DNA from: an uncultured Paenochrobactrum sp. | GTDB taxonomy: Bacteria > Pseudomonadota > Alphaproteobacteria > Rhizobiales > Rhizobiaceae | Assembly (NCBI GenBank): GCA_947627865.1 | Contig: CANQXU010000002.1 | Span: forward strand, 1-59,424 | Direction: 5' to 3' | DNA length: 59,424 bases | Shown here: piece by piece, positions 1,732-25,049 of the stretch | Layout: each line of letters begins with the position of its first letter | Numbering within the stretch: position 1 is the stretch's first letter | The notes under the pieces: generated by a model | The model's input: only the letters and a program-made list of their open reading frames with translations | What the model was told of the DNA's origin: nothing | Database searches by the model: none | Made by a program: the position numbers and the translations under genes

Positions 1732-4446
1732 TCAAATGTGATTGAGTAAAAGCGCATCTCCAACAAACAGGCTGGTCATACCATTAACCGCGCCGAGCAT
1801 TTCAAAACCACTAAGTCCAAAATTGGTTTTTATTCCATCAGTTTCGATTTCTTTGCGTAAAGTTTTGAGTATTTTTGAACTATCGGCTCCAATTGCGCGT
1901 GCAAGATAATAATCGCCGATTAAACCATGGCAAAGGCAATGAGAATTTTTAGCTTTACCTAAACTATTGATGACTATTTCTATATCAGTATCGTAAGTTT
2001 CTCTTGGCAGAAAAGCTCGGCAATATAAACGCGATAAACCAATGCCGACTGTGCCGTGACACCAAGATGTTTCACAAGCATCGCCCTTATTCAACCTTGG
2101 CCATCCTCGTGGCTGACGATATCTTGTTTCGCGTTCTGTGTTGCGTCTGATGAGTGCAATTGCATCAGGATTTGATTGCCCAAACAATGACATATAAGCG
2201 CTAAGGCATGCCGAAACACCGCTTGTGCCATGCGCAAATCCAAGGAGAGTTGTATCTTCCTTTAAGAGTTCATCCGATTGTTCGAGAATGCGTGCGAAAA
2301 TAAAATCGGCGAGCTTTTTAATTTTTTCTGCAATCGGATATTCACGATAAAGCAGATTTAGCCGTAGCAGCATATTTAATGTGCCGGATGCGCCGCTGTT
2401 GAAATCAAGGTCTTCGTAGTTCTCCCATTTTTGACACGCCAAATGAAGTGACAGCTTGGCTAAAGTTTTTTCTATCAGCGCCAACATCAAGGTTGGTTGA
2501 TAAGAATGAATAACTGAAACAGCCCATAAAGCTCCGGCAGTACCTGTGAAGGCCCCTAAACTGACTTGCGGTGTTTCATCAAGACTGCGTATGACTTGTT
2601 TGGAAAGGGTGCGAGCAAAATCTGAAAAAGGTGCGTAAGACGTTCTTGTACCGACATTATGATAGGCAAGAGCTAATCCTGCAACGCCTTGATATAAATC
2701 AGTATTACTGAGATCTGCACCTGTCTGCCCTCCCCCCGACACATTAATACAACGCCATGAATAATCTTCGCCATGGCGTATTGCATTTGTCATGATTTTT
2801 GACAGAACGTCATGTGCCAAAGCATCCAACCACTCTTCATCAGAAATATTTGCGATATGTTTAAAATTAAAACCTTGCGAGCGTTCGGCTTGGCTGTTTC
2901 TAAGGTGGTAAACGAGAAAAGCGTGCTCAAGATCCTTCACAGATTGCTTAATAAACGCATTTGTGAGGCGTGAGAATTGATGGCTTAACTTTTGACTTGG
3001 CGCATAATGAATAGCAACAGGAAGTTTATTGTCATTGCCATCTATGAGCTCCGCTTGATCAAAAGGCATCGAGAAGTAAGGTATATCACCTTGATTTAAA
3101 TTGTTAATCTCACTTTGTAATATATACGGATCATGCGTAATATCAGCAATTGAGTGAATGACGCTGGCAGTTAAGTTCAATTTTAATGTGTCAGGATGAA
3201 AAATATTATGAAGTATTTTGGTATATTCTTCGGTTGCTTGGATAATAATTCTGATCGGCGCATTGTTCATAAATTGGAAGATTTTGCGCAGAACCAAATC
3301 ACGATTAATTTGTAAAAACTGGAGCGTTTCTCTTAAGCCCTTTATAATATCTTGGCGATAAAGGCTGAAATTTGCGCCCTGCCCTTCATATATAACTTCG
3401 CTTTTGCAATCGCCGGTAACGAGCTTTGCAGGCTCTAATTTGAGAGTGCTACAGCGCTTTTGCGGATTGATGCGTATATCAATATTGGTCTGCATTTTAG
3501 AGCGCGCAGTCAACGGGCTGATTTCAATCTCATCATGCATAAGCTGCACAGGCAGAAGCAGTGAATTGTAAATATGGTGATGCGCTGAAGCGTTTTTGTC
3601 ACTTTTCAGCAGGGCTGAAAAGAGCGTTTCAATATCTATAATGACCGGATATTCACCTTGTGCAACAATGTTTTCCATATGCAAATCCGTGGCGGCGAAT
3701 ATATGGGTGAGCGCAAGCAGCGATCCGTAGCGCTGATAATAATGAGACACCTGCTCTTTAGTTGTGCAATCTTGCTGCTTTATTTCTTCTGCCCAACCGT
3801 AACCGCCAAAATTTAAAGCACGTGGTGCGCGGTGGCTGATGGAAAAATGATTATTCATCCATGTTATGAAATTATAAAAGCCCTCATCCACTGACAGATT
3901 ACGCGGCTTGTAATAGAGTGATCTGCGGCATCCCTCACGATTAATATAACTTAACCGCGCTGTTTGCTGTGCGCCTCGATGAGGATCACCGATTGGTGTA
4001 ATTTCTGTAATTGCTGCGACTGTTTCATCCTGATAAAATTGTTTGGCTATAAGATTGATATCTGCCGTTGCCCGCGTGATTAAGGTTTCAAGAGCTGCTC
4101 TATATGAGGCTGCCTCTTGCTGCCATCTGGGCAAGAGTGCGGGATATTTATTGCATAAAGCAGTAAAATTATCCGGCTTACAGACTTCAGTGACAAAATA
4201 CTCAAAGCGCTCGGTCGATGTGGTGCCCTGTAACAGCCCGTCTTGATCAGAAAGATTCATTTCTACAATCAGCACCCTCTCCCATATTTTACGCATTACG
4301 GGATTAAAAACACTTTCAAAGCTGCTGAGTAAGGTTGTTTCAGAGATGAGTTCAGATCGAAATTTTTTAAAGTATTCAAACTGATGGATCAGGAGATGGG
4401 TGTAAATTTTAGAGAATATGTCGTTCTGAAATAATATAATTGGCAT
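1732..4446 (-). CDS. lanM: Type II lanthipeptide synthetase LanM (DUF4135 dehydratase + LanC-like cyclase)
   Basis: 904 aa; ATDLHMENIVAQGEYPVIIDIETLF dehydratase motif; LanC-type HGTSG, SWCHGTVGIGLSR and LCHGLIGDYYL with the Cys/Cys-His zinc ligands. Confidence 0.92.
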   Translation of the reverse strand: MPIILFQNDIFSKIYTHLLIHQFEYFKKFRSELISETTLLSSFESVFNPVMRKIWERVLIVEMNLSDQDGLLQGTTSTERFEYFVTEVCKPDNFTALCNKYPALLPRWQQEAASYRAALETLITRATADINLIAKQFYQDETVAAITEITPIGDPHRGAQQTARLSYINREGCRRSLYYKPRNLSVDEGFYNFITWMNNHFSISHRAPRALNFGGYGWAEEIKQQDCTTKEQVSHYYQRYGSLLALTHIFAATDLHMENIVAQGEYPVIIDIETLFSALLKSDKNASAHHHIYNSLLLPVQLMHDEIEISPLTARSKMQTNIDIRINPQKRCSTLKLEPAKLVTGDCKSEVIYEGQGANFSLYRQDIIKGLRETLQFLQINRDLVLRKIFQFMNNAPIRIIIQATEEYTKILHNIFHPDTLKLNLTASVIHSIADITHDPYILQSEINNLNQGDIPYFSMPFDQAELIDGNDNKLPVAIHYAPSQKLSHQFSRLTNAFIKQSVKDLEHAFLVYHLRNSQAERSQGFNFKHIANISDEEWLDALAHDVLSKIMTNAIRHGEDYSWRCINVSGGGQTGADLSNTDLYQGVAGLALAYHNVGTRTSYAPFSDFARTLSKQVIRSLDETPQVSLGAFTGTAGALWAVSVIHSYQPTLMLALIEKTLAKLSLHLACQKWENYEDLDFNSGASGTLNMLLRLNLLYREYPIAEKIKKLADFIFARILEQSDELLKEDTTLLGFAHGTSGVSACLSAYMSLFGQSNPDAIALIRRNTERETRYRQPRGWPRLNKGDACETSWCHGTVGIGLSRLYCRAFLPRETYDTDIEIVINSLGKAKNSHCLCHGLIGDYYLARAIGADSSKILKTLRKEIETDGIKTNFGLSGFEMLGAVNGMTSLFVGDALLLNHI

Positions 4447-4507: not shown

Positions 4508-4556
4508 CACCTCAAGTCTATACTGATTTACCAAGCAGACTTGAGGTGGCTTTTTT
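4508..4556. terminator. 12-bp perfect stem-loop between candidate lanA and lanM (T-run on the plus strand only)
   Basis: CACCTCAAGTCT (4508-4519) / AGACTTGAGGTG (4537-4548), then TTTTTT on plus at 4551-4556. Confidence 0.8.
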
Positions 4557-4668
4557 AACAAATATGGATCAGCGAGAAGGTTAGAGTTTTACCAGTATTG
4601 GCGCTTACTTTATAGGTGTCGCCAATGAGCTTGGATGCAAGTTTTGTATCGTATTTGTTGGAAATCAT
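4555..4668 (-). CDS. Candidate lanthipeptide precursor (LanA), 37 aa: MISNKYDTKLASKLIGDTYKVSANTGKTLTFSLIHIC
   Basis: Manual translation; lies directly upstream of lanM on the same strand; Ser/Thr-rich C-terminal half ending in Cys. Below the length cutoff of the ORF track. Confidence 0.68.
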   Translation of the reverse strand: MISNKYDTKLASKLIGDTYKVSANTGKTLTFSLIHIC

Positions 4669-4700
4669 TTTTTACCCATTCATTTGTCTAGAATAACAAC

Positions 4701-4730
4701 AAAATACCCATTCATTCTTGAGGGGTATTT
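4701..4730. terminator. Stem-loop AAAATACCC...GGGTATTTT upstream of candidate lanA
   Basis: 9-bp inverted repeat read directly; T-rich flank on the minus strand. Confidence 0.5.
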
Positions 4731-4928
4731 TGATCAGCGACCATGATGTTGATCGTAATTTCTCACCACCTGCTGACAGGCGCTAATAAGCATTTTGGGA
4801 AAAGGGGTTGTATCCCAATTAATTGCAGTTTTATGAAAATATCTTTGCAATTGGAAAGTTGATTTTCCTGGATATGACTTAAGCCAGCGCTGAAACCCGT
4901 ATTTTTTTATTTGGTAATGCCCTGCTCT

Positions 4929-5022: not shown

Positions 5023-5209
5023 GTTTTGAAAATAGCTGCAATAGCTTGGGCTGTATAAAGGTGACTAAATATATCAGCTTAGTAGTGAGTGAAAACGATT
5101 TTTTAAACGCTTTACAAAAGAAGAGTTGAGCAGGGTTGCCCTGCCCGCTTGGTGGTATTTTCAAGCCTATGAGTGCCCGCACAGCGCATATTCTAAAGGA
5201 ATTTTGCTA

Positions 5210-6559
5210 ATGAAAAAGCCTGTATATGACTTTATAGGCATTGGATTAGGCCCGTTCAATCTCGGTTTGGCTTGCCTTGCAGAACCTGTCGAAAACTTAT
5301 CGACACTGTTTCTTGAGCAAAAGTCGCATTTCGCATGGCATCCGGGAATTATGCTGGATGACTCTACGCTGCAAACATCATTTTTAAGCGATCTGGTCAC
5401 TATGGCAGATCCGACAAATCGGTTCAGTTTTCTGAATTATCTAATGCAAAAAGGCAGACTATATCCGTTTTACATATCAGAAAACTATTACCCAAGCCGC
5501 AAAGAATATAATGATTATTGCAATTGGGCAGTGGGGTTGTTGAAAAATATTCGCTTTATGCAAGAGGTTCGGCAGATAGAATATGATGAGAAATATCAAG
5601 TCTATTTAGTCAGTGCTCATGATTGCGAGAATGAAACGAGAAAGATTTATCAAGCCAAACATTTGGTTCTTGGTGTTGGAATGCAGCCTTATAAACCAGA
5701 CTGTGCACATGGTTTCAATAAAAATATCGCGCACACATCGCATTATTGTTTTGAGAAGAAAAAGATACAGTGCTGTAAATCAATAACGATCATTGGCAGT
5801 GGTCAGAGTGCTGCAGAAGTTGTTGATGATTTATTGAATGAAAATGAGAAATTTGATTATCAGCTGTATTGGATCACCCGTTCGCCGCGCTTCTTTCCTG
5901 TTGATCTGTCAAAAATCACATTGGAAATGACATCGCCTGCCTATGCAGACTATTTTTATAATCTCGAAGGAGATCAGAAAGCCAAACTTCTGGGCGGGCA
6001 AAAAGCCTTGTATAAAGGCATAAATTATGAATTGATCGAGAAAATATATCGTCGGCTTTATGAAGATAAGATCAAGCGTCGCCATAGCACAAGGCTGATG
6101 AGCAATTGCGAACTGTTATCAATGCATGGCTCGGTTGATAATACCAATATTTATGATCTGCATTTTCGCCAACAGGAGCAGGGGCGTGATTTTAGCCTCA
6201 AGAGTGAGGCAGTCATTTTCGGCACTGGATATGAATATTGTGAGCCAGTTTTTCTGAAACATATTCAAGACAGAATTCATTATTTAGATTCAGGCCAATA
6301 TAATGTTGATCGGTTTTATTCCATTGATGGTGGTCGCCGAGAAATCTTTGTCCAGAATGCCGAGCTGCATAGCCATGGTTTTGTTGCACCTGATTTAGGC
6401 ATGGGCAGTTATCGCAATGCCTGTATCCTAAATCAAATCTGCGGCCGCATTGTCTATCCGATAGAGCAGAAAAGCATTTTTCAAGATTTCTCTGTTCCTG
6501 ATGATTTCAGTCAGGAGATAGCTTCTGATAACTCAAGAATTAAGCGTACAGAAGCTTGA
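5210..6559 (+). CDS. L-lysine/ornithine/diamine N-monooxygenase (IucD/AlcA/RhbE-like), siderophore biosynthesis
   Basis: YDFIGIGLGPFNLGLACL FAD motif; FLSDLVTMADPTNRFSFLNYL; IIGSGQSAAEVVDDLL NADPH motif. ATG at 5210 follows AAGGA; the ORF-track start at 5126 is probably too early. Confidence 0.9.
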   Translation: MKKPVYDFIGIGLGPFNLGLACLAEPVENLSTLFLEQKSHFAWHPGIMLDDSTLQTSFLSDLVTMADPTNRFSFLNYLMQKGRLYPFYISENYYPSRKEYNDYCNWAVGLLKNIRFMQEVRQIEYDEKYQVYLVSAHDCENETRKIYQAKHLVLGVGMQPYKPDCAHGFNKNIAHTSHYCFEKKKIQCCKSITIIGSGQSAAEVVDDLLNENEKFDYQLYWITRSPRFFPVDLSKITLEMTSPAYADYFYNLEGDQKAKLLGGQKALYKGINYELIEKIYRRLYEDKIKRRHSTRLMSNCELLSMHGSVDNTNIYDLHFRQQEQGRDFSLKSEAVIFGTGYEYCEPVFLKHIQDRIHYLDSGQYNVDRFYSIDGGRREIFVQNAELHSHGFVAPDLGMGSYRNACILNQICGRIVYPIEQKSIFQDFSVPDDFSQEIASDNSRIKRTEA

Positions 6560-6610
6560 AATATTATTTTAATCCAATTGATTAGTTAAAATCCTCCCGT
6601 CAGGTTTGAT

Positions 6611-9019
6611 ATGTCATTTTTGATTCAGAAATTTAAGAATAAAGCCCATTTTCACTATGATGATAAGGTGTTGGGACGTTTTTCAGTTCAAACATTAAAT
6701 CCTGAATTGCATGCGGGCTTGCTTTATCAATGGGTCGTGCAGGACTATGCGCGCTATTGGAATATGCGCGATTTTAGCAAGCCAGAATTGGAAGCCTTTT
6801 ACACGCAGCTTTTGGCGCAACCGGATAAGGCCGCTTTCATTGGGCAATATGCTGGTGAGCCAGCATTTTTGTTCGAGCTTTACGCACCTGAAAATACGCC
6901 GCTATCCGATCATTATCAGGGTGAGCAGGGCGATTGTGGCATGCATTTGTTGGTTGCCCCTGCACGTCTGCCGCGCTCCGGCTTTACTCTAGCCGTGATG
7001 CGGACTGTTATGCAGTTTATTTTCAGCGAGCCGGATATAAAGCGTGTTGTGGTCGAGCCGGATATTGAAAATCATAAAATACATCGCCTCAATTGCAGTG
7101 TCGGATTTATGCATATCAAGCCCGTACAATTACCGGATAAATGTGCTTATCTTGGATTGTGTTCGCGGGCGGCATTTTTCAATTCAGCAGAAACAGTTTC
7201 ATCGCCAAATAATGACCAAATGGCTTTTGCGCACACGGCGCATTTGTCACCTTATTATTGGGAGAGGGCCAATCGATTTTTATTGGCCAAAATTATTTCT
7301 GAATTTTCGCATGAACAGATTTTGTATCCGCTTAAACTGAGAAGTGATCAGGGTGCGGCGGGCTATTATGAGCTGCTGCTCACTGATGGGCTTAAATATA
7401 AATTTAGCGCACGCCGTATGCGTGTTGATCATTGGCTGCTCAATGCTGCTAGTCTTACACGCTTTACCAAAGCTGAGAATGGCGATTGGGATCAAAATGG
7501 CGCGCCGGATGTATTGGAATTTCTGGTCGCCAGCCGCCCAAATCTGGATATAGGGGCACAAGATTTTCCGCTTTATCTGGAAGAAATTAGCAGTACGCTT
7601 TTTAGCAGTTGTTACAAGCTCTCGACAGCCGGGCGGTCAGCGGATGAATTATGCCATGCTGATTATCAAGCCGTCGAAAAAGGGATGCGTGAGGGGCATC
7701 CGGTTTTTATTGCCAATAATGGGCGGATTGGTTTTAATATTAGCGATTATAATTTTTATGCGCCTGAAAGCGGAAACAATTTGCAAATTGCATGGGTGGC
7801 GGCAAAGCGCACAAAAGCAGTTTTTACATATATTGACGGATTGGACTATCTAAAACTGATTGAGCAGGAATTGGATGCCGTCACCTTGCAAAAATGGTGT
7901 AATCGATTGATTATGCTTGGTTTAAATCCGATTGATTATTATTTCATGCCAGTTCATCCTTGGCAATGGCAACATAAAATAGCAATTACCTTTGCTGGCG
8001 AGGTAGCAAAACGGGATCTCGTTTATCTTGGCAGTTCGCCTGATTATTATCAGCCACAGCGATCAATTCGCACTTTTTATAATGTGACGTCACCGCACAA
8101 GCATTATGTTAAAACCGCACTTTCAGTGTTGAATATGGGCTTTATGCGTGGCTTGTCGGCTGAATATATGTTGACGACGCCTATGATTAATCAGTGGCTA
8201 TCAAGCCTGTTGGAAACGGACGCGTTTTTACAACGAAATGGCTTTAGAATTCTGCGTGAAAGCGCAGCAGTCGGTTATTGGAACCCGATTTATAATAAGC
8301 AAATCACACAAGGGAGCGGTTATGGTAAGATGCTGAGTGCATTATGGCGGGAAAGTCCCAAGCAATATCTGCGCCCATATGAGCGGCTGATGACAATGGC
8401 GGCATTGCTGCATTTAGACGGGGCAGGTAGAGCCCTGCTTGGCAGTCTGATGAGAGAGGCGAATATCACGGCAAAAGCCTGGATAAAGGGTTATTTGCAG
8501 GCTTATCTTTTGCCTTTGCTGCATTGCTTTTATGCTTATGATCTTGCTTTCATGCCTCATGGTGAAAATGTGATCATGATTTTGAAGGACTACCGGATTG
8601 AACGCATTCTCATGAAAGATATCGGTGAAGAGATTGCGGTGATGAATAGCGGGATTTCTATTCCTGAAGAAATATCCAGAATTCACTTACAAATAGACGA
8701 AGAACTGAAAGCCAATTATATTTTTACCGATGTGTTTGATGGTTTTTTCCGGCATCTCGCAGCTATTTTAGTTGATCATGATTTGATGAAAGAGCATGAT
8801 TTTTGGGCTTTAGTGGCTGATACGATTAGAGAATATCAAAACTCGCATCCCGAATATGCGGCTAAATATCAACAATATGATTTGTTTCAGCCAACCATGT
8901 TGCGAAATTGTTTTAACCGCCTGCAAATGCGCAATAGTCGCCAGATGCTGGACTTGCTCAATCCGCAAAGCAGTTTCCAATTTGGCGATCCAATGGAAAA
9001 TCCAATAGCAAATATGTGA
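6611..9019 (+). CDS. Fused N-acyltransferase + IucA/IucC-type NIS siderophore synthetase
   Basis: 802 aa: about 190-aa GNAT/IucB-like N-terminus (MHLLVAPARLPRSGFTLAVMRTVMQFIF), then the IucA/IucC body (HPVFIANNGRIGF, MPVHPWQWQHKI, MPHGENVIMIL). Confidence 0.9.
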   Translation: MSFLIQKFKNKAHFHYDDKVLGRFSVQTLNPELHAGLLYQWVVQDYARYWNMRDFSKPELEAFYTQLLAQPDKAAFIGQYAGEPAFLFELYAPENTPLSDHYQGEQGDCGMHLLVAPARLPRSGFTLAVMRTVMQFIFSEPDIKRVVVEPDIENHKIHRLNCSVGFMHIKPVQLPDKCAYLGLCSRAAFFNSAETVSSPNNDQMAFAHTAHLSPYYWERANRFLLAKIISEFSHEQILYPLKLRSDQGAAGYYELLLTDGLKYKFSARRMRVDHWLLNAASLTRFTKAENGDWDQNGAPDVLEFLVASRPNLDIGAQDFPLYLEEISSTLFSSCYKLSTAGRSADELCHADYQAVEKGMREGHPVFIANNGRIGFNISDYNFYAPESGNNLQIAWVAAKRTKAVFTYIDGLDYLKLIEQELDAVTLQKWCNRLIMLGLNPIDYYFMPVHPWQWQHKIAITFAGEVAKRDLVYLGSSPDYYQPQRSIRTFYNVTSPHKHYVKTALSVLNMGFMRGLSAEYMLTTPMINQWLSSLLETDAFLQRNGFRILRESAAVGYWNPIYNKQITQGSGYGKMLSALWRESPKQYLRPYERLMTMAALLHLDGAGRALLGSLMREANITAKAWIKGYLQAYLLPLLHCFYAYDLAFMPHGENVIMILKDYRIERILMKDIGEEIAVMNSGISIPEEISRIHLQIDEELKANYIFTDVFDGFFRHLAAILVDHDLMKEHDFWALVADTIREYQNSHPEYAAKYQQYDLFQPTMLRNCFNRLQMRNSRQMLDLLNPQSSFQFGDPMENPIANM

Positions 9020-12491: not shown

Positions 12492-13693
12492 TTAAGCAGT
12501 TTTTGTTATTTTGGCCACAATAGGAAGCACCAGCATTATCAAAATTGCGCCTGATATAAACAGGCTCTGATAGCCAAAAAGCGATGCTATCTTGCCCCCA
12601 AAACACCGATTGTCATGCTGACCGCACTATCCATACATTGAAAAATGGTAAAATCGACCCCTGCTTGTCGAATATCTGCAAGATGCATGAATTGCGCGTA
12701 AAGCGCGACAAATCCAAACGCCATGATGCCGGAAGAGGACATAAGTGCGCAGATCAGAATTAAAATTTGTGATGGTTGCGGCTGTATTGCTATCAAAATA
12801 AAATTGATCAGAAGCACCAATTGCAGCAAAAGTGCCGTGATTAGAATTTTGTGGCTACCGAATTTTTTCACGCAATAACCACCCGTTATGGCACCGGCAA
12901 AGCCAATGATCAAACCACCTATCCCATTGAAAATCCCAAGATAATACAGGCTGATTTTAGCATCAACCATGAAAGGCACGAGCATGGCACCACCCCATTT
13001 TTGCGCCGCAACATAACAGGCGCAAAGCATCATGCCTTGGCGTATTGGCGGGCGGCTGATTGCAGCTTTAAGCGATGGGATATGAGCACGCTCCCTGACT
13101 TCTGAATGTGCCCTTTGGGGGTATATAAACGGAACTGCCAGCAGCAAGATGCTGATGGCCATTATGATGATGCTTATCTTCCAGCCATGATGACCATAAA
13201 TGATAAGAAACAAACCAGACCCGATAGCGGAGCCAAGATAGGCACTGCCGACTTGCGCGGCATTGCCCCAGCCTCGGTTTTTTGCAGACAGGTTTTCAAT
13301 CGCATAACCATCGCAGGCAATATCAACAGTTGCCACCGCAAAAGCTATGAAGATCATACAGATAACAAGCATTGCCAGATGCGATAAGCCAAGATGGGCG
13401 GCAACAATAAGACCGGAAGCCGAGATTATGCCACCCGTCATGACAATCAGGCGGGATCTGTCTGGCCCATAGGCTGGCAAGCGAAAACGCTCGACAAAAG
13501 GCGACCACAGAAATTTAAATGTCCATGGTAATATCGCAAGATAAACCAGTCCTATCTGATCAAGCGGCAAGCCACTTGAACGCAATATGGCCGGCAGTCC
13601 GCTATAAGTTAAACCACCAACGATACTTTGACTGACATAGACACCGCCAATCGCGAAAAAAACCGATAGATTTGAGGGATGTTGCTGCGTCAT
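12492..13693 (-). pseudogene. RhtX/FptX-like MFS siderophore transporter with a C-terminal frameshift
   Basis: ORF stops at 12587 (...TIGVLGAR*); adding one G to the G5 run (12595-12599) restores GVLGGKIASLFGYQSLFISGAILIMLVLPIVAKITKTA* ending at 12492. Confidence 0.8.
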
Positions 13694-15589
13694 TAAAAAC
13701 TGTAACGCATGCTGGCAGTGATTTTTCGCCCTTCACTCCAATAGCAATATCCACTGGTGCAGCTTTGGTAAATCTGATTGAGCAGATTGCTGGCATTGAC
13801 TTGTAGCTGCATATTTTCAAGTTTGGGGTGTAGATTGGCGAGATCATAGCGCAAATTCGCATCTATGAATAATTGCGCTTTATTGTTGAGGCTGGCCGTA
13901 TGCACATTATCGCCAAAGCTTGCGCCGACATAGCGGATACCTGCACCAAGCTTCAAACCGCTGAGCACACCCGTGCCGATATCATAATCCGCCCAGAGCG
14001 AGGCTGTGTGATAGGGTGAAGCATTGAGCGTTTTGCCGGAGGTGGCTTGCGTGAGGTGCAGAATTTTTACATCATTATAGCTATAGGATGCTTGAAGGCT
14101 CAAACCATTATCAAATGTGGTGCCTGCATCAATTTCAAAGCCGCGTGAGCGCATATCCAATTGAATTTGCTCATTAATGCCGGATGATGTTTCATAAACA
14201 CTCGCGTTTTTCTGATCAATATTATAAATGGCAGCATTGATGAATGTCTGTGTTTCGGGGATTAGATATTTTACGCCCAGCTCAAACTGCCTGCCTGTCG
14301 TTGGCGCGGCTTGCTCGCGCGGGCTCCCGTTTTTACTTTGTAATATTCCGGCATTGGCCACAAATGATGTTGCATAGCTAAGATAAGGCATCAGGCCGTT
14401 ATCCATGGCGTAACCGATTGAAGCACGTCCCGTTATCTCGTGATCATTGCGCTTATAGCGGGTGAAGCCGTCGGCAAAACTGCCCGTGGTCAAATGACTT
14501 TGCAGCCAATCATGCCTAAGCCCCAATGTGACGCGCCATGCATCCATTTCCAATTGATCTTGAGCGTAGATGCCTGTTTGTATTTGTGTTTGGCGATCGC
14601 GATTGGTTATTTCCGGCTTATACATATGCTGCGGTGTAAAGGGGATGTTGCCGCTGCCGCTGTCACTCACATAGGCCGTGCGTCCTGCATCCAAGCCAGT
14701 GATGAGCTTGTGATGAATTGCACCTGTATCAAATCCGGCTTCGAGATAGATATCGGTGGCGAGATTGTTGTTTCTTTCTTCCACATATCCGGGAAGACCC
14801 TGAACGGCATATTCATATTTATTGGCTAAAGCAGCATAGCGCAGACGCTGATGCACTATAACAGCATCATTGAGGCGCTGATCCAGTTCATAGCCGATAT
14901 TGCCCTGATGCTGCCGGAAATTATTGAAGCGCGGATCGCCGACATAGTCGTGCGTGGCCCCTGTCGATTTGCGGGTAACGGGATCGTAAAGATTAACATA
15001 AGCGGCGGTGCCGCCCGTAGTTGCATCCATATATGAGCCGAGAACTGTAAATTTGGTGTCGTTATCCGGCTGCCATGTAAAGGCTGGTGCGATATAGAAA
15101 CGATTGTCCTTCATAAAGGGACCGATCGACGTATTGGCATGTCGAAGAACACCGGTCAGTCGATATAGCAGGCTGCTGTCGTCCTTTATGGCACCTGAAA
15201 AATCAAAGGCGGTTTGCAAGCGTTTATAAGACCCAGTTTCTAAAATGACTTCGCGCAAATTTTCCTCTTGCGGACGCTTGGTGATCAGATCAACCAGTCC
15301 ACCCGTGCCGCTGGCACCATAAAGGGCAGAGGAGGGGCCTTTGAGGATACTGATGCCTTCCAATCCATAAGGCTCAAGACGGAAAAGTCCGTTCGGGCTA
15401 TTCGCTTGACGCAATCCATCTTTAAAAACTCCGGTATAAGTAAGGTCAATGCCGCGAATTTTGAATGAATCATAACGCGGGTCAAAACCAAATTGGGTGA
15501 TATTGGTGCCTGACGTATAGCTGAGCGCATCGAGCAAATTCTGCGCATTACGCTCGCTCAATTGTTGGCGTGTGACAGTGCTGACCGAT
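13693..15589 (-). pseudogene. TonB-dependent siderophore receptor lacking signal peptide, TonB box and start of plug
   Basis: [29 protein letters not shown] plug and TonB receptor barrel to ...KITASMRYSF. Residues upstream of SVSTVT are hsdM DNA read in another frame. Confidence 0.85.
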
Positions 15590-16042
15590 CTTGCGGTTGA
15601 AGTTAATCCCTTTGAGAACATCTTCCAACGCATCGGAGTTCGCGTCCTCAATCGCCTCTAGCGCCTTATTCAGTGTAGTGCCGACGTTCTCTTTGACATG
15701 CTTGAGTGCAGGGTGCTGAATAAGATTAGTCTGGCCATTCTCAATAACCTCCTCCTGCCAGCCTTCATTCCAGCGAGCACGTTCAGGCACGAAGAAATAC
15801 TTGCCGGAGTAATTATCTGGATCTTCAAGCGCGATTACAATATCAGCTGGGCTCATCCCCATATTTGTTAACTCAATTTTCAACTCTGCTCGACGTTGAT
15901 CGAACAAGTCACTGGCGCGCTTGAGGAACAGCATACCGAAAATGTATTCCTTGTATTCGCTGGCATCCATGCTACCACGCAAATCATCACAGGCGGTCAG
16001 CAGGAGGCTTTCCAAACGTGCTAGGGTGAGCTTAAATTTCAT
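15581..16042 (-). pseudogene. Type I restriction-modification HsdM N-terminal fragment
   Basis: [32 protein letters not shown]...[10 protein letters not shown] is HsdM-like, then runs into receptor sequence. Confidence 0.85.
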
Positions 16043-17954: not shown

Positions 17955-18614
17955 CTAAACTGAGAGGAGAACTTCTTTTGCTATAATGATAGCAGATTTT
18001 GATAATTCTTTATATTTCTCTCTAAGCATTAATGCTTCTATAGTACTATTAACAAACTCAGGATTGAGGCGATCAATAGCCTCAAGCGTTAATTTAACTT
18101 CCTTTGGGTATTCCCTAAGCGCATCGACAATCGCATCTGCGTAATGCTCGGCTCCAGCAGCGATATCAAAGATGTCGCGAGCTTTAATGCTGCGGCCTCG
18201 ATAAAAGACCTTCTTTGTAATGATTTCAGGTATTGTTTCTAATGAGATGTAAACACCATCGATTTGATGCATCGATGTAGGATTATGAGTTAAGCTTTGT
18301 CCAACAATGAAATCGATCTCACCAGTACTAAAAACTAACTTTAGTGAATTAGATCCATCGGAAGCATAACCAGTAGGTGCTAATTCAAAATCAAAGTCAT
18401 GCAAACTTGGGTTTAAATATCCCAAAAGTTGCGGGTCATTTAGAAATATATCAATATCATGACTTTCACGGTGATCAATTTGCAGCATCATCGCAGTGCC
18501 GCCACCAAATGACCAGCTTTCTATATATTTATAGTCTTTATTAGCTTGTTCAATCAACGAACAAGCTATGCGCAACAGTCGCTTCCAATCTGATTGATGT
18601 TTCGGACCAGTCAT
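17955..18614 (-). CDS. AbiEii-type nucleotidyltransferase toxin-like protein
   Basis: FGGGTAMMLQIDHRESHDIDIFLND nucleotidyltransferase signature. Confidence 0.8.
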   Translation of the reverse strand: MTGPKHQSDWKRLLRIACSLIEQANKDYKYIESWSFGGGTAMMLQIDHRESHDIDIFLNDPQLLGYLNPSLHDFDFELAPTGYASDGSNSLKLVFSTGEIDFIVGQSLTHNPTSMHQIDGVYISLETIPEIITKKVFYRGRSIKARDIFDIAAGAEHYADAIVDALREYPKEVKLTLEAIDRLNPEFVNSTIEALMLREKYKELSKSAIIIAKEVLLSV

Positions 18615-20319: not shown

Positions 20320-21600
20320 TTGATTTATGTCTCGTTTTTAATTGCCGCCGGAGTTGTTTTGGTTAAAATTTTACACACTGCAGATATTCATCTCGACTCT
20401 CCCTTAAAATCTCTGGCCTTGCGTGATGAGACTTTGCGCGACACAGTGCATACAGCAACGCGGACCGCCTTTACACGCATTATTGATACAGCGCTGCGTG
20501 AAAATGTTGCTGCTTTGCTGATTGCTGGCGATCTTTTTGATGGGGCGGAGCGCAGTGCCAAAACGGCAGCATTTTTGATCAGCGAGTTTGATCGGCTTAA
20601 AGTTGCAAATATTCCGGCCTTTTATATTAAAGGCAATCATGATGCAGAAAATCCGATTACGGGTGAGTTGAACCTGCCGGAAAATGTCCATGTTTTTGAT
20701 GGGCGGGGTGGAAAAATTCAACTGGGCGAGCGTGATATCTGGATCCATGGCGTTAGCTTCAGCGGTCGTCAGGCATTGGAAAGCTTGCTGCCAAAATTCC
20801 ATGCGCCTGTTGCTGATGCCATCAATATCGCCATGTTGCACACATCCCTTTCCGGTGCCAAGGGGCATGATACTTATGCGCCTTGTACTATCAATGAGCT
20901 TGGCGAAATGGGATTTGATTATTGGGCGCTAGGCCATATCCATAAGCGGCAGGTGCATAGCCAAACACCATGGATTGTGATGCCGGGCATTCCGCAAGGC
21001 CGCGATATTGGAGAGGCTTCTGCAAAATCAGCAACCCTGTTGCACATTAATGACGGGGAAATCACAATTGAAGAGGTTCCAACCTCGGCAGCAGAATTTA
21101 TCGAGCTTCAAATTGATATCAGTGCTTGCGAAAACGATGATCTCATTCGTGCTGAATTGCGGCAGAATTTGCAAATTATAGCGAAAAATATGCGGTCGGA
21201 TGCGGGTATTTTGCGCCTGACACTGAGCGGAACAAATGCGCGGAAATGGCAGATACAGCGCGATCAGGCATTATGGATTGAAACCTGCGCCGAGCTTGCG
21301 CGGGACACGGATCGGCTATGGCTGGAAAAACTGCATTTTGATTTGAAAACACCAGATCACTTGAATGCAGGTGGCTCCTCTGCTGTGGATGAATTGGCGC
21401 AGATTATGGCTGAAATTCAAGCAGAAGAGGGTTTCCAGTCCGAGTTGAATGCAAATATTGAAATGATTTTGGCCGAATTGCCAGCCCATCGTCGCATAAA
21501 TTTGCTACCCGATGAGGAAACAGCAAAAGCGCTAGGCCAACAGCTTGCAAGTGAGGGTGCAAACCGTGTTCTTGCTGCGATGAAGGGTGCCGTAGAATAA
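20320..21600 (+). CDS. DNA repair metallophosphoesterase, SbcD/Mre11 type (YhaO-like)
   Basis: LHTADIHLDSP, AGDLFDG, KGNHDAENP, GHIHKRQ motifs. Likely true start is TTG at 20359 after CCGGAG. Confidence 0.88.
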   Translation: MIYVSFLIAAGVVLVKILHTADIHLDSPLKSLALRDETLRDTVHTATRTAFTRIIDTALRENVAALLIAGDLFDGAERSAKTAAFLISEFDRLKVANIPAFYIKGNHDAENPITGELNLPENVHVFDGRGGKIQLGERDIWIHGVSFSGRQALESLLPKFHAPVADAINIAMLHTSLSGAKGHDTYAPCTINELGEMGFDYWALGHIHKRQVHSQTPWIVMPGIPQGRDIGEASAKSATLLHINDGEITIEEVPTSAAEFIELQIDISACENDDLIRAELRQNLQIIAKNMRSDAGILRLTLSGTNARKWQIQRDQALWIETCAELARDTDRLWLEKLHFDLKTPDHLNAGGSSAVDELAQIMAEIQAEEGFQSELNANIEMILAELPAHRRINLLPDEETAKALGQQLASEGANRVLAAMKGAVE

Positions 21601-24600
21601 TGCGTTTACGTCAATTATCATTGGATTTATTCGGGCATTTTTCAGGAAAATCATATGATTTTGGTGAAAAACAAACGGATTTTGCCGATTTCCATGTGAT
21701 TTATGGGCCGAATGAAGCAGGAAAAACCACAACAATGGAGGCCTTTCTCCGTTTAATTTTTGGTTTTCCGCATCGCGATGCTTATGATTTTCTGCATCAG
21801 CGTAAAAATCTGACCGTTTCCGGCACACTGGAAATTGGCGGTCATGAACGCTTTTTAAAACGTGTTTCGAGCCGTAATAATTCACTGATTGACGAGAATG
21901 GCAAAGCATTGCCTGAGGCGCTGCTTCAAGCACATTTGGGTGGATTGTCGGAAGAGGATTACCGGCATTTATTATGCCTCGATGATGAGACGATCGAGCG
22001 TGGTGGTGAGGAGATTGCCAGCAGCAAGGGTGATATCGGTCGCTTGCTATTTTCTGCCGCAGCCGGTGTTAGTGATCTGACCAATGTTCTTGATCATATT
22101 CGGGGGCAGGCGGATGAGCTTTATCGCAAACGTGCCAGCACGACTGAAATGGCACGGCTTAAAAAAGAATTGGCTGATATTGAGCGGAAGATTAAAGAGC
22201 AGGATGTGCCCGCAAGCCAATATCGCAAGCTGAAACAATCCTATGAGCAAGCGCTTGCCGAAGAGGCAGCCTTTGAAAATGAGCGCAAAGAAAAGCGGCT
22301 TGATCTGGCTAAGACCAAAGCGCGACTGGCGGCTTTGCCGCTATTGTTGGATATTGACAGGCTTGCAGCGGCGATAGCACCCTTTGCGGAATATCCGCAG
22401 CAGCTTGATTTCAATGCAGAGGATTTGGTGGAGCTTTTGACCCGCCAAACGCGATTGACATCAGATACCGAGCGGCTTGAAAAAGAGCTTGATCAACTGA
22501 GTATTGATTTAAATGAAATTCAACGTGAGCCGCAGCATTTAAATCTGGGTGCCGAGCTTGAAAATCTGGATGAATTGCGCAGCCGCTATTTGACCGCTGA
22601 GCGCGATTTACCGCGCCGCCGCAAGTCGCTTGATGATGTGCTTTTGGATATGCATGCACAAATGCGAGCACTTGGAGCGGATGAAGAAGAGCCGGAAAAA
22701 CTTGCTTTAAGTCAGGGGCAATTGAGCGAAATGGCGCAAGCGCGAGAAGAAAAACGCGATGCGTATCATATGCAGCTTGCCGAGCAGGAAGAGATTGAAA
22801 CACTCAATATCCGTCTGGAAGCGGCACAAAAAGATATTCTGAATCTTAAAAATGCTGAAAATACACCCTCTGGCGTGAAGGATATTCTCACGCGTTTTTC
22901 GGCTCAACGCTTTCTGCCGCAACATGCTAAAGCACAACAAGCGATCACGGATGCAAAGCGAAGATTTCGTAATGCGTTGGATGGATTGGCGATTAAAGAT
23001 CTGGTTTTTGATCAGGTGCCTGCCTGTCATGTAAGCGGCGAAGAAGCTGCCGGGCTTGCAGAAAATCATCGGGATTTATCTGAAAAGCTGGCGCATATTA
23101 TACAATCTTTGTCAGATCATCAAAAAGATGCGGATATTGTTCAAAGTGAAATTGATGCGATTAAATTATCGCAAGGTTTGAGCGATGATACAGAGACAGA
23201 ATTGCGGATGAAAAACCGCAATCAGCTGTGGCTTGAGCACAAAGAGCTTTTAAGCCAAGTGAGTGCGAACAAATTTGAACAGGCAATGTTTGCCGTTGAT
23301 GAAAGCGCGGATAAAAGATTGGCGCAAGCCGAAATTGTTGGCCAAATGCGTGTTTTGACACAGCGCCTGCATAGATTGACCATTGAGATTGATGCGCTTG
23401 GCAAGCAAAAGAGTGAGCTTGAAGCAGCATTGGGCAATTTGGATGCAGAATTTAAAAAACTAATTGAAACTATTGGGTTTCCTGCTTCAACGCCACCGAT
23501 GAGCTTTGCCAATTGGGCAAAAAAGCGGGATGAAGCAGCACTGATTGAACGTCAGATGCAGCATGTGCTTGATGAGCATCAAGATATCATAGCTAAGGCT
23601 GAGCGGTTGTATGATGCTTTATTACCGTTAATTGATCTTGATGCTCCAGATTTCGATTCCTTGATTGATGCAGCTTTGGATTTACAAACGCGAGAACAAG
23701 AGCAGGCAGACAAAGCACTGGCTTTAGAAAAAAACCATGCTGAATTGCAAGCAGATTATGAGCGGCGTGAGAGCCGGTTAGTGCAATTTGAGAAACAGGC
23801 TGAAGCCGCCAATCTGCAATGGCAAAGTCTCATCGAGCAAAATCTTGGATATGCAGTTTCACCAGATGATGTTGAACGTGGTTTTGAGCAATTGCGTGAG
23901 ATCGCACATTTGAACAATCAACGCAGCGGCTTTGCGCGTCAGGTTGAAGGGATGGAAGCTGATCAGGCAGAATTTGCCGAGAAAATAGCTGAAACCGCTC
24001 ATTTCAAAGGGCTTGATAGTGATCTGCCACCTTTGGAAACCTTTATGGCACTGGAGAAGATTTCGCAGACTGCACAAGCAATCGAGGCACGTTGGCAGCA
24101 GTTGGATAGCCGTAAAATTGCGGTTCTCGAAGAGCGCGAAGCTGTCAAAATCTCTTCCAAAGAGATTGACAATCAGGTGACCCAATTGGCGCAAATATTC
24201 CCCGTTCATGTCGCGACGGATACATTGCCACAATTGCGTATCGCGGTCGCCGATGCTGCCAATGCGATTGAACAAAGCAAACAAATGGAGCTATCGGCAA
24301 CCAAAATTTGTGCTGACTTGTCACTCCCCGATATTGAAAGCGTCAGGCAAGAACTGAGTGGTTTGAGTGCGCATGAGCTTTCCGTTGAGGTCGATAATCT
24401 TGAGGATGCGCTTTCTGACATCGAGGAAAAGCATAAAAAAGCGATTGAGCTACGCAGCGATGCAGCTGGTTTATTGGCACGGGTGACGGGGGAGGGGGAT
24501 ATTGCGGCCCTCACCGAGATGAAGGTTACATTGGAAGCGCAGATTGAAGATGCAGCCTTGCGCTATCTGGAATTTGATCTGGGGCATCGCTTGGCGGAAG

Positions 24601-25049
24601 AAGCCATCCGGCGTTACCGCGATAAACACCGCAGCGGCATGATGGATGCAACCGAGAAGATCTTTTTTGAACTGACCAATGGTGCTTATTCCAAACTTTA
24701 TACGCAGCCTGAAGGTAATAATGAGATACTAAAGGCACTTGATGCAGGAGGTACAGCCAAGCAGGCGGGCGATATGTCAAAGGGTACAAGATTTCAGCTT
24801 TATCTTGCATTACGCGCTGCGGCTTATGAGCAATTGGTTAGTCAGGGCGTATGTCTGCCATTTTTCTGTGATGATATATTTGAAACATTCGATGAAGAAC
24901 GCACCCGTGCAGCATGCCGTGTTATGGCGCGCATCGGCCATTCAGGACAAGCAATCTATCTGACGCATCATCGCCATGTGGTTGATATCGCGCTGAAAGA
25001 ATGCGGCTCGAATGTAAAAATCCATGAAATCGATGAAATCCATGCGTAA
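21600..25049 (+). CDS. SbcC/Rad50-like AAA ATPase (YhaN-like)
   Basis: VIYGPNEAGKTTTMEAFLRLIFGFP Walker A, coiled-coil middle, C-terminal LYLALRAAAYEQL...PFFCDDIFETFDEERT. Confidence 0.88.
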   Translation: MRLRQLSLDLFGHFSGKSYDFGEKQTDFADFHVIYGPNEAGKTTTMEAFLRLIFGFPHRDAYDFLHQRKNLTVSGTLEIGGHERFLKRVSSRNNSLIDENGKALPEALLQAHLGGLSEEDYRHLLCLDDETIERGGEEIASSKGDIGRLLFSAAAGVSDLTNVLDHIRGQADELYRKRASTTEMARLKKELADIERKIKEQDVPASQYRKLKQSYEQALAEEAAFENERKEKRLDLAKTKARLAALPLLLDIDRLAAAIAPFAEYPQQLDFNAEDLVELLTRQTRLTSDTERLEKELDQLSIDLNEIQREPQHLNLGAELENLDELRSRYLTAERDLPRRRKSLDDVLLDMHAQMRALGADEEEPEKLALSQGQLSEMAQAREEKRDAYHMQLAEQEEIETLNIRLEAAQKDILNLKNAENTPSGVKDILTRFSAQRFLPQHAKAQQAITDAKRRFRNALDGLAIKDLVFDQVPACHVSGEEAAGLAENHRDLSEKLAHIIQSLSDHQKDADIVQSEIDAIKLSQGLSDDTETELRMKNRNQLWLEHKELLSQVSANKFEQAMFAVDESADKRLAQAEIVGQMRVLTQRLHRLTIEIDALGKQKSELEAALGNLDAEFKKLIETIGFPASTPPMSFANWAKKRDEAALIERQMQHVLDEHQDIIAKAERLYDALLPLIDLDAPDFDSLIDAALDLQTREQEQADKALALEKNHAELQADYERRESRLVQFEKQAEAANLQWQSLIEQNLGYAVSPDDVERGFEQLREIAHLNNQRSGFARQVEGMEADQAEFAEKIAETAHFKGLDSDLPPLETFMALEKISQTAQAIEARWQQLDSRKIAVLEEREAVKISSKEIDNQVTQLAQIFPVHVATDTLPQLRIAVADAANAIEQSKQMELSATKICADLSLPDIESVRQELSGLSAHELSVEVDNLEDALSDIEEKHKKAIELRSDAAGLLARVTGEGDIAALTEMKVTLEAQIEDAALRYLEFDLGHRLAEEAIRRYRDKHRSGMMDATEKIFFELTNGAYSKLYTQPEGNNEILKALDAGGTAKQAGDMSKGTRFQLYLALRAAAYEQLVSQGVCLPFFCDDIFETFDEERTRAACRVMARIGHSGQAIYLTHHRHVVDIALKECGSNVKIHEIDEIHA

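Follow-up and report, generated by a model that had tools for sequence, protein, structure and literature searches.

The bifunctional LanM synthetases of class II lanthipeptide systems, such as LicM2 (lichenicidin) and CylM (cytolysin), combine a DUF4135 domain with a LanC-like domain, and the systems to which they belong have a short precursor gene adjoining lanM, a Ser/Thr-rich core with Cys, and a hairpin after the precursor. In the prochlorosins and in the lanthipeptides with Nif11 or nitrile-hydratase leaders, a conserved leader is combined with diversified cores. A 2024 survey predicted 179 precursors with a single Cys, noted a His enrichment among them, found that they mostly cluster with other single-Cys types, and stated that the pattern had not previously been observed in known lanthipeptides except labionin-type lipolanthines (PMC11251773). 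The locus described here lies in a 59,424-nucleotide stretch (the window) of contig CANQXU010000002.1 from an uncultured Paenochrobactrum sp., where lanM is preceded on the minus strand by a lanA-type open reading frame (ORF) of 37 amino acids (aa) at 4555..4668. With a probability of about 0.9, we consider this 37-mer to be the substrate of the LanM, i.e. the LanA precursor in a class II cassette of two genes, lanA and lanM. A sequence-only reading of the window had proposed the same; the proposal is strongly supported by a conserved leader family beside lanM, the chemistry being one that we infer.

The lanM gene (1732..4446, minus strand) is intact; profile and structure matches assign its 904-aa product to the class II lanthipeptide synthetases, with a DUF4135 dehydratase and a LanC-like cyclase domain. 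The protein scores 513 bits against TIGR03897 (NCBIfam cut-off, 304 bits) and matches the Pfam domains DUF4135 (E=5e-76) and LANC_like (E=5e-38), and its nearest solved structures are LicM2 (6st5) and CylM (5dzt). The motifs YKPR, DxHxxN, DxE, RxxxxxT, HG, WCHG and LCHG can be aligned with those of LicM2 and do not vary among six relatives; nor do the candidate catalytic residues K180, D254, H256, N259, D271, E273, R399, T405, H739, C796, C839 and H840, whose roles are presumed to be those known for CylM. Judged by these domains and motifs, the window LanM is a genuine class II synthetase. The locus thus presents the features of its class: both LanM domains, the catalytic and Zn-binding motifs, a linked precursor, and Ser/Thr residues before Cys.

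Translation of 4555-4668 on the minus strand gives MISNKYDTKLASKLIGDTYKVSANTGKTLTFSLIHIC followed by the stop codon, in exact agreement with the sequence-only reading, and the distance to lanM that had been put at about 110 bp measures 108 bp from the precursor stop to the lanM start codon. The ATG start is pinned by an in-frame TAA two codons 5' of it (GGG TAA AAA ATG). The leader would comprise residues 1 to about 24 (MISNKYDTKLASKLIGDTYKVSAN) and the core residues about 25 to 37 (TGKTLTFSLIHIC), with a putative boundary near residue 24/25. Cys37, within the C-terminal third, is the sole Cys of the precursor and its last residue, as had been noted, and the closest homologue, from Phyllobacterium salinisoli, likewise has Cys at this position. 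T25, T28, T30 and S32 stand N-terminal to it in the core, which also contains one His. This crude composition is unremarkable: among the 443 window ORFs with a length of 30-60 aa, 17 have a Cys within their last 3 residues together with at least 3 Ser/Thr within their last 16; composition alone would not single out the 37-mer, so that homology carries the case. That the ORF was missed by annotation fits a 2020 survey in which 17% of class II precursors were not annotated as genes (PMC7268733).

Related loci were searched for in 398 genomes of the host's GTDB family (which includes Phyllobacterium), and in GTDB contigs scanned with a LanM alignment, a single LanM sequence as query having given no match. 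The host's own genome is a 3.1 Mb draft, 89% complete. A close full-length LanM (E < 1e-200) was present in only 4 of the 398 family genomes: that of the window, P. salinisoli (52% identity to the window LanM), Phyllobacterium leguminum (47%) and Rhizobiales bacterium AFS058694 (41%). Two more came from the contig scan, Falsochrobactrum shanghaiense (52%) and Ochrobactrum sp. RH2CCR150 (49%). The co-conservation by which the sequence-only reading proposed to check its candidate was found throughout: each of the other five intact close relatives has a homologous small ORF upstream of its lanM, namely MISKKYDADIASKLVGGSLHVSAGSGRSLSLLTVRVCCDDESVRPV in P. salinisoli, MISEKYDNNTALKVIGNRLNVNISNGKTLSIACSIYYSPVCG in F. 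shanghaiense, MISKKFHSDKVDKIVGTTTKVNPTKSNHYTSFCTCCYQVCI in Ochrobactrum sp. RH2CCR150, the tandem pair MISNTFNRQLAASVIGRRMQIETNNALCSDGCSTGCTEAGRCHQARIGEANKASS and MISTKFNDKLAEAVIGRRQRVAANNPLCTGDHTYCWNACLQSRRN in P. leguminum, and MVVSKLYDKKISKSVVGERKEITTELSLCTQVSVCQTMWIEGCNITEWAEGGCK in AFS058694. A profile of the full peptide matched all four family genomes with a close LanM (E 4.7e-16 to 3.9e-11). In the window's own genome the peptide type occurs once.

The leaders follow a consensus of approximately MISxK[YF]xxKxAxKVIGxxxxV. A leader profile was built on 24 columns from the six other leaders, leaving the window peptide out, and was searched against all 960 window ORFs of at least 20 aa. 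It ranks the 37-mer first (38.0 bits, E=5.5e-11), the next-best ORF reaching 6.9 bits (E=0.38), and the top score among 10,000 shuffled versions of the 37-mer was 11.0 bits. No other window ORF matches the profile, so that a different conserved precursor nearby, which would have spoken against the 37-mer, did not appear, and across the retrieved loci the profile matches these precursors only. None of the seven peptides has a leader with a Pfam or NCBIfam match, Nif11 and nitrile hydratase included. Conservation extends beyond the leader in the comparison with P. salinisoli, whose peptide aligns without gaps from M1 to C37 with 17 of 37 residues identical. Identity at codon positions 1, 2 and 3 is 62, 76 and 30%, with proportions of differences of 0.33 at nonsynonymous sites (pN) and 0.79, i.e. 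saturated, at synonymous sites (pS). The other two same-strand frames give 7-8 identities, and one antisense frame reaches 16, as expected from codon positions that mirror the coding frame. The core alone (TGKTLTFSLIHIC against SGRSLSLLTVRVC) yields a match equalled by only 17 of 100,000 shuffles; the F. shanghaiense precursor shares GKTLS. Positions 28 and 30 are Ser/Thr in all three species, and S32 is not kept at its exact position, P. salinisoli having T33. The codon-position bias and the core match indicate that the coding frame, and not just the DNA, is constrained through to Cys37.

Weaker full-peptide matches in the family genomes (E >= 5e-5) appear false: of three inspected, two lay in guanylate kinase genes and the third showed no precursor-like ORF, and those leader-profile matches at E ~1e-3 that were inspected fell within guanylate kinase genes or frames without homology, and were rejected as false positives. 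The leader was not found in the retrieved flanks of the distant LanMs of the order and family (25-27% identity) or of Piscirickettsia.

A stem-loop of 12-14 bp (4508..4548, minus strand; -21.5 kcal/mol) lies directly 3' of the precursor stop and before lanM. Its U-tail is weak on the lanM strand and its T-run is on the plus strand, so that a canonical terminator in the direction of lanM is not shown; it is possibly an attenuator, a stabiliser or a bidirectional terminator. A stable stem-loop also follows the precursor in P. salinisoli (twice), F. shanghaiense and Ochrobactrum sp., and one stands between the two precursors of P. leguminum; position and form recur across loci, with unrelated sequences. 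A further hairpin (CAAAATACCC...GGGTATTTTG) followed by a T-rich tract, at 4700..4732 on the minus strand, was read from the sequence and is absent from the terminator-scan list; it may, at a weak level of confidence, be a terminator or attenuator before the precursor.

Processing would differ from that of lichenicidin and cytolysin. The window family has a leader of another type, in which [VIL][IV]G is conserved at residues 14-16 and the single Gly16 has D, G, N, T, R, R or E after it, and the alignment shows no double-Gly (GG/GA/GS) cleavage site at the leader end of any member, which extends to the whole precursor family what had been said of the window peptide. Likewise, the nearby LanT that the sequence-only reading did not see is missing on a wider scale: no C39 peptidase/ABC exporter was detected among the profile-scanned neighbours, and no match to Peptidase_C39 (PF03412) was obtained in the window's own genome, 8 of 14 control genomes being positive. 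Absence from the genome is probable rather than proven, as the draft is 89% complete. The locus also differs from lichenicidin and cytolysin by its lack of conserved immunity or transporter genes and by a core with one Cys, and from the prochlorosins and the Nif11 and nitrile-hydratase types by a leader of only ~24 aa, without a GG site or a model match. On these tests, it appears to fall outside both the LanT/double-Gly subgroup and the Nif11/nitrile-hydratase-leader precursors.

According to the proposed mechanism, the 37-mer would be translated and its N-terminal leader (~residues 1-24) held by LanM, whose DUF4135 domain would phosphorylate some of T25, T28, T30 and S32 and eliminate the phosphate. 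The zinc-bound LanC-like domain would then add the Cys37 thiol to one dehydroalanine or dehydrobutyrine (Dha/Dhb), forming a (methyl)lanthionine ring. Only Cys37 being available, one ring at most can be expected, as had been pointed out; it would close at the C-terminal residue, most likely as S32-C37 or T30-C37, the former giving the smallest ring, and other dehydro-residues would possibly be left open. Leader removal, if any, would fall to a protease from another locus, of a type other than C39/double-Gly. For the window peptide, dehydration, cyclisation, export and function are all inferred in this way from the genes.

The substrate reading draws on the homologous ORFs upstream of lanM at all five other loci, the leave-one-out leader match with its shuffle control, the intact canonical LanM, the presence of the peptide in all four family genomes with a close LanM (once in its own genome), the coding constraint with the core match to P. 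salinisoli, and the hairpin found after the precursor in most loci. Several observations weigh against it. The homology signal is mostly in the leader and not in the core; the putative cores contain from one Cys (window) up to five, two to five in the other members, with a number and spacing that do not indicate a common product structure; the Shine-Dalgarno sequence at the window start is weaker than in the homologues (GGGTAAAAA versus GGAG); and one more family genome (G445, genus Phyllobacterium; full-peptide profile, E=3.9e-7) has the peptide without LanM. One rival reading is a decaying precursor whose core has lost Cys residues that the family ancestor had, in which case LanM may dehydrate a peptide whose product is non-functional, or the locus may be on its way out. 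The window peptide is the shortest of a family whose other members have more Cys, its ribosome-binding site is weak, and a decayed lanM is known in Brucella pituitosa. However, the window LanM is intact with all its motifs, and the core aligns without gaps to that of P. salinisoli through C37 with conserved Ser/Thr. P. salinisoli has just one further Cys, directly after the C37 position, so that little or no core seems to be missing, and the window stop codon immediately precedes the hairpin. We therefore regard decay as unlikely, and a frameshift or truncation of the core was likewise judged unlikely, since the frame follows that of P. salinisoli to the last residue.

The hairpin between the ORF and lanM would also suit a regulatory upstream ORF (uORF) that controls lanM through it, the true substrate being encoded elsewhere in the genome, as prochlorosin-type LanMs have distant precursors (PMC7268733). 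Amino-acid conservation goes well past what a uORF needs, however, the Cys pattern of the cores diversifies as it does in precursors, the ORF is duplicated in tandem in P. leguminum, and no second leader copy was found in the window's own genome; such a role is very improbable. Leader homology, codon-position bias and synteny already contradict a functionless chance ORF, for which its shortness and the 17 small window ORFs of the same crude composition could be quoted, and its probability beside the substrate reading is negligible.

The orphan precursor of G445 is MISTKFNINLAESTIGRRNQIAANNLLCSHNCNTSNTSSCMCGGISQTAGV (L035 1465-1632, minus strand), and the same genome holds a decayed second copy. 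The end of the orphan abuts an operon (L051 2290-8265) with deoxyhypusine-synthase-like, apparent CoA (coenzyme A)-ligase-like and 2-hydroxyacid dehydrogenase genes, which continues with an AdoMet (S-adenosylmethionine) decarboxylase/spermidine synthase fusion, an apparent amidinotransferase and ABC transporter genes. No close counterpart of the deoxyhypusine-synthase-like gene turned up in the remaining 397 genomes of the family. The arrangement is possibly a different tailoring route, or a junction made by an insertion sequence (IS). The decayed lanM of the same clade in B. pituitosa is located on plasmid pOAAA2 (L002 5941-7823), lacks the N-terminal part, shows 42% identity in the cyclase half, and is preceded by genes of lasso-peptide type (asparagine synthase-like, B2 protein). 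No precursor was identifiable beside it. A neighbouring autotransporter gene product is 38% identical to the autotransporter of the window, a linkage that was set aside because it was not seen among the examined genes of the intact relatives.

The G+C content of the cassette is 5-12 percentage points below that of the flanks in most loci (2.7 to 13 points for individual flanks). The neighbours differ: ClcA and a siderophore operon in the window, the Kdp system and copper genes in P. leguminum, type IV secretion and thiamine genes in AFS058694, an SbmA/BacA-like ABC transporter and a Crp-type regulator in F. shanghaiense, and a ROK-family gene and phosphoglucomutase in Ochrobactrum sp. Low G+C and differing neighbours fit a horizontal spread of the minimal lanA-lanM unit. 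An empty-site comparison with the only congener (G001) met just a distant ClC homologue. Two of the six loci have, between precursor and lanM, a hotdog-fold-like gene (149-166 aa; weakly FabA-like, below the Pfam cut-off) that is absent from the window (P. leguminum L022 8195-8695 and AFS058694 L023 7829-8278, both plus strand).

Beside the cassette, the window carries genes of the nonribosomal-peptide-synthetase-independent (NIS) siderophore type (5126-9019, plus strand; Lys/Orn N-monooxygenase and a GNAT-IucA/IucC-FhuF protein), which score below the NCBIfam cut-offs of named siderophores, and an RhtX/FptX-like transporter (12587-13693, minus strand). A FoxA/FhuA-like siderophore receptor (13693-16042, minus strand) opens with the plug domain and shows no evident signal peptide. 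It overlaps an N-terminal HsdM fragment of 164 aa at the end of the latter, and the arrangement looks like a rearrangement junction. Further on are an AbiEii-like nucleotidyltransferase gene (17955-18614, minus strand) and a calcineurin-like phosphoesterase gene followed by that of an AAA_27/SMC-like ATPase (20320-25049, plus strand; SbcDC-like, with a weak PADLOC match to LmuB).

Taken together, the locus is best read as belonging to a branch of the class II lanthipeptides that does without LanT, the window peptide being its single-Cys precursor with comparative support. More tentatively, and as a possibility we hold to be less probable than its opposite, these loci may represent a family that moves between Brucella/Phyllobacterium-like bacteria as no more than a lanA-lanM pair, with neither LanT-type cleavage nor dedicated export, the window product being a minimal single ring closed at the last residue, possibly intracellular or released by a general exporter, and not a secreted antibiotic. 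Literature on lanthipeptides of Ochrobactrum, Brucella or Phyllobacterium gave nothing on these loci; the supplementary tables of mining papers were not covered, so that an earlier listing as predictions is possible. In contrast to the surveyed single-Cys precursors, the window peptide is grouped with relatives of 2-5 Cys that have the same type of leader, and it has independent comparative support. The leader signature given here is one that annotation pipelines currently miss, and this single LanM clade may be used to ask directly if single-ring products exist, how the number of rings changes in evolution, and in what way class II leaders are processed where LanT is lacking.
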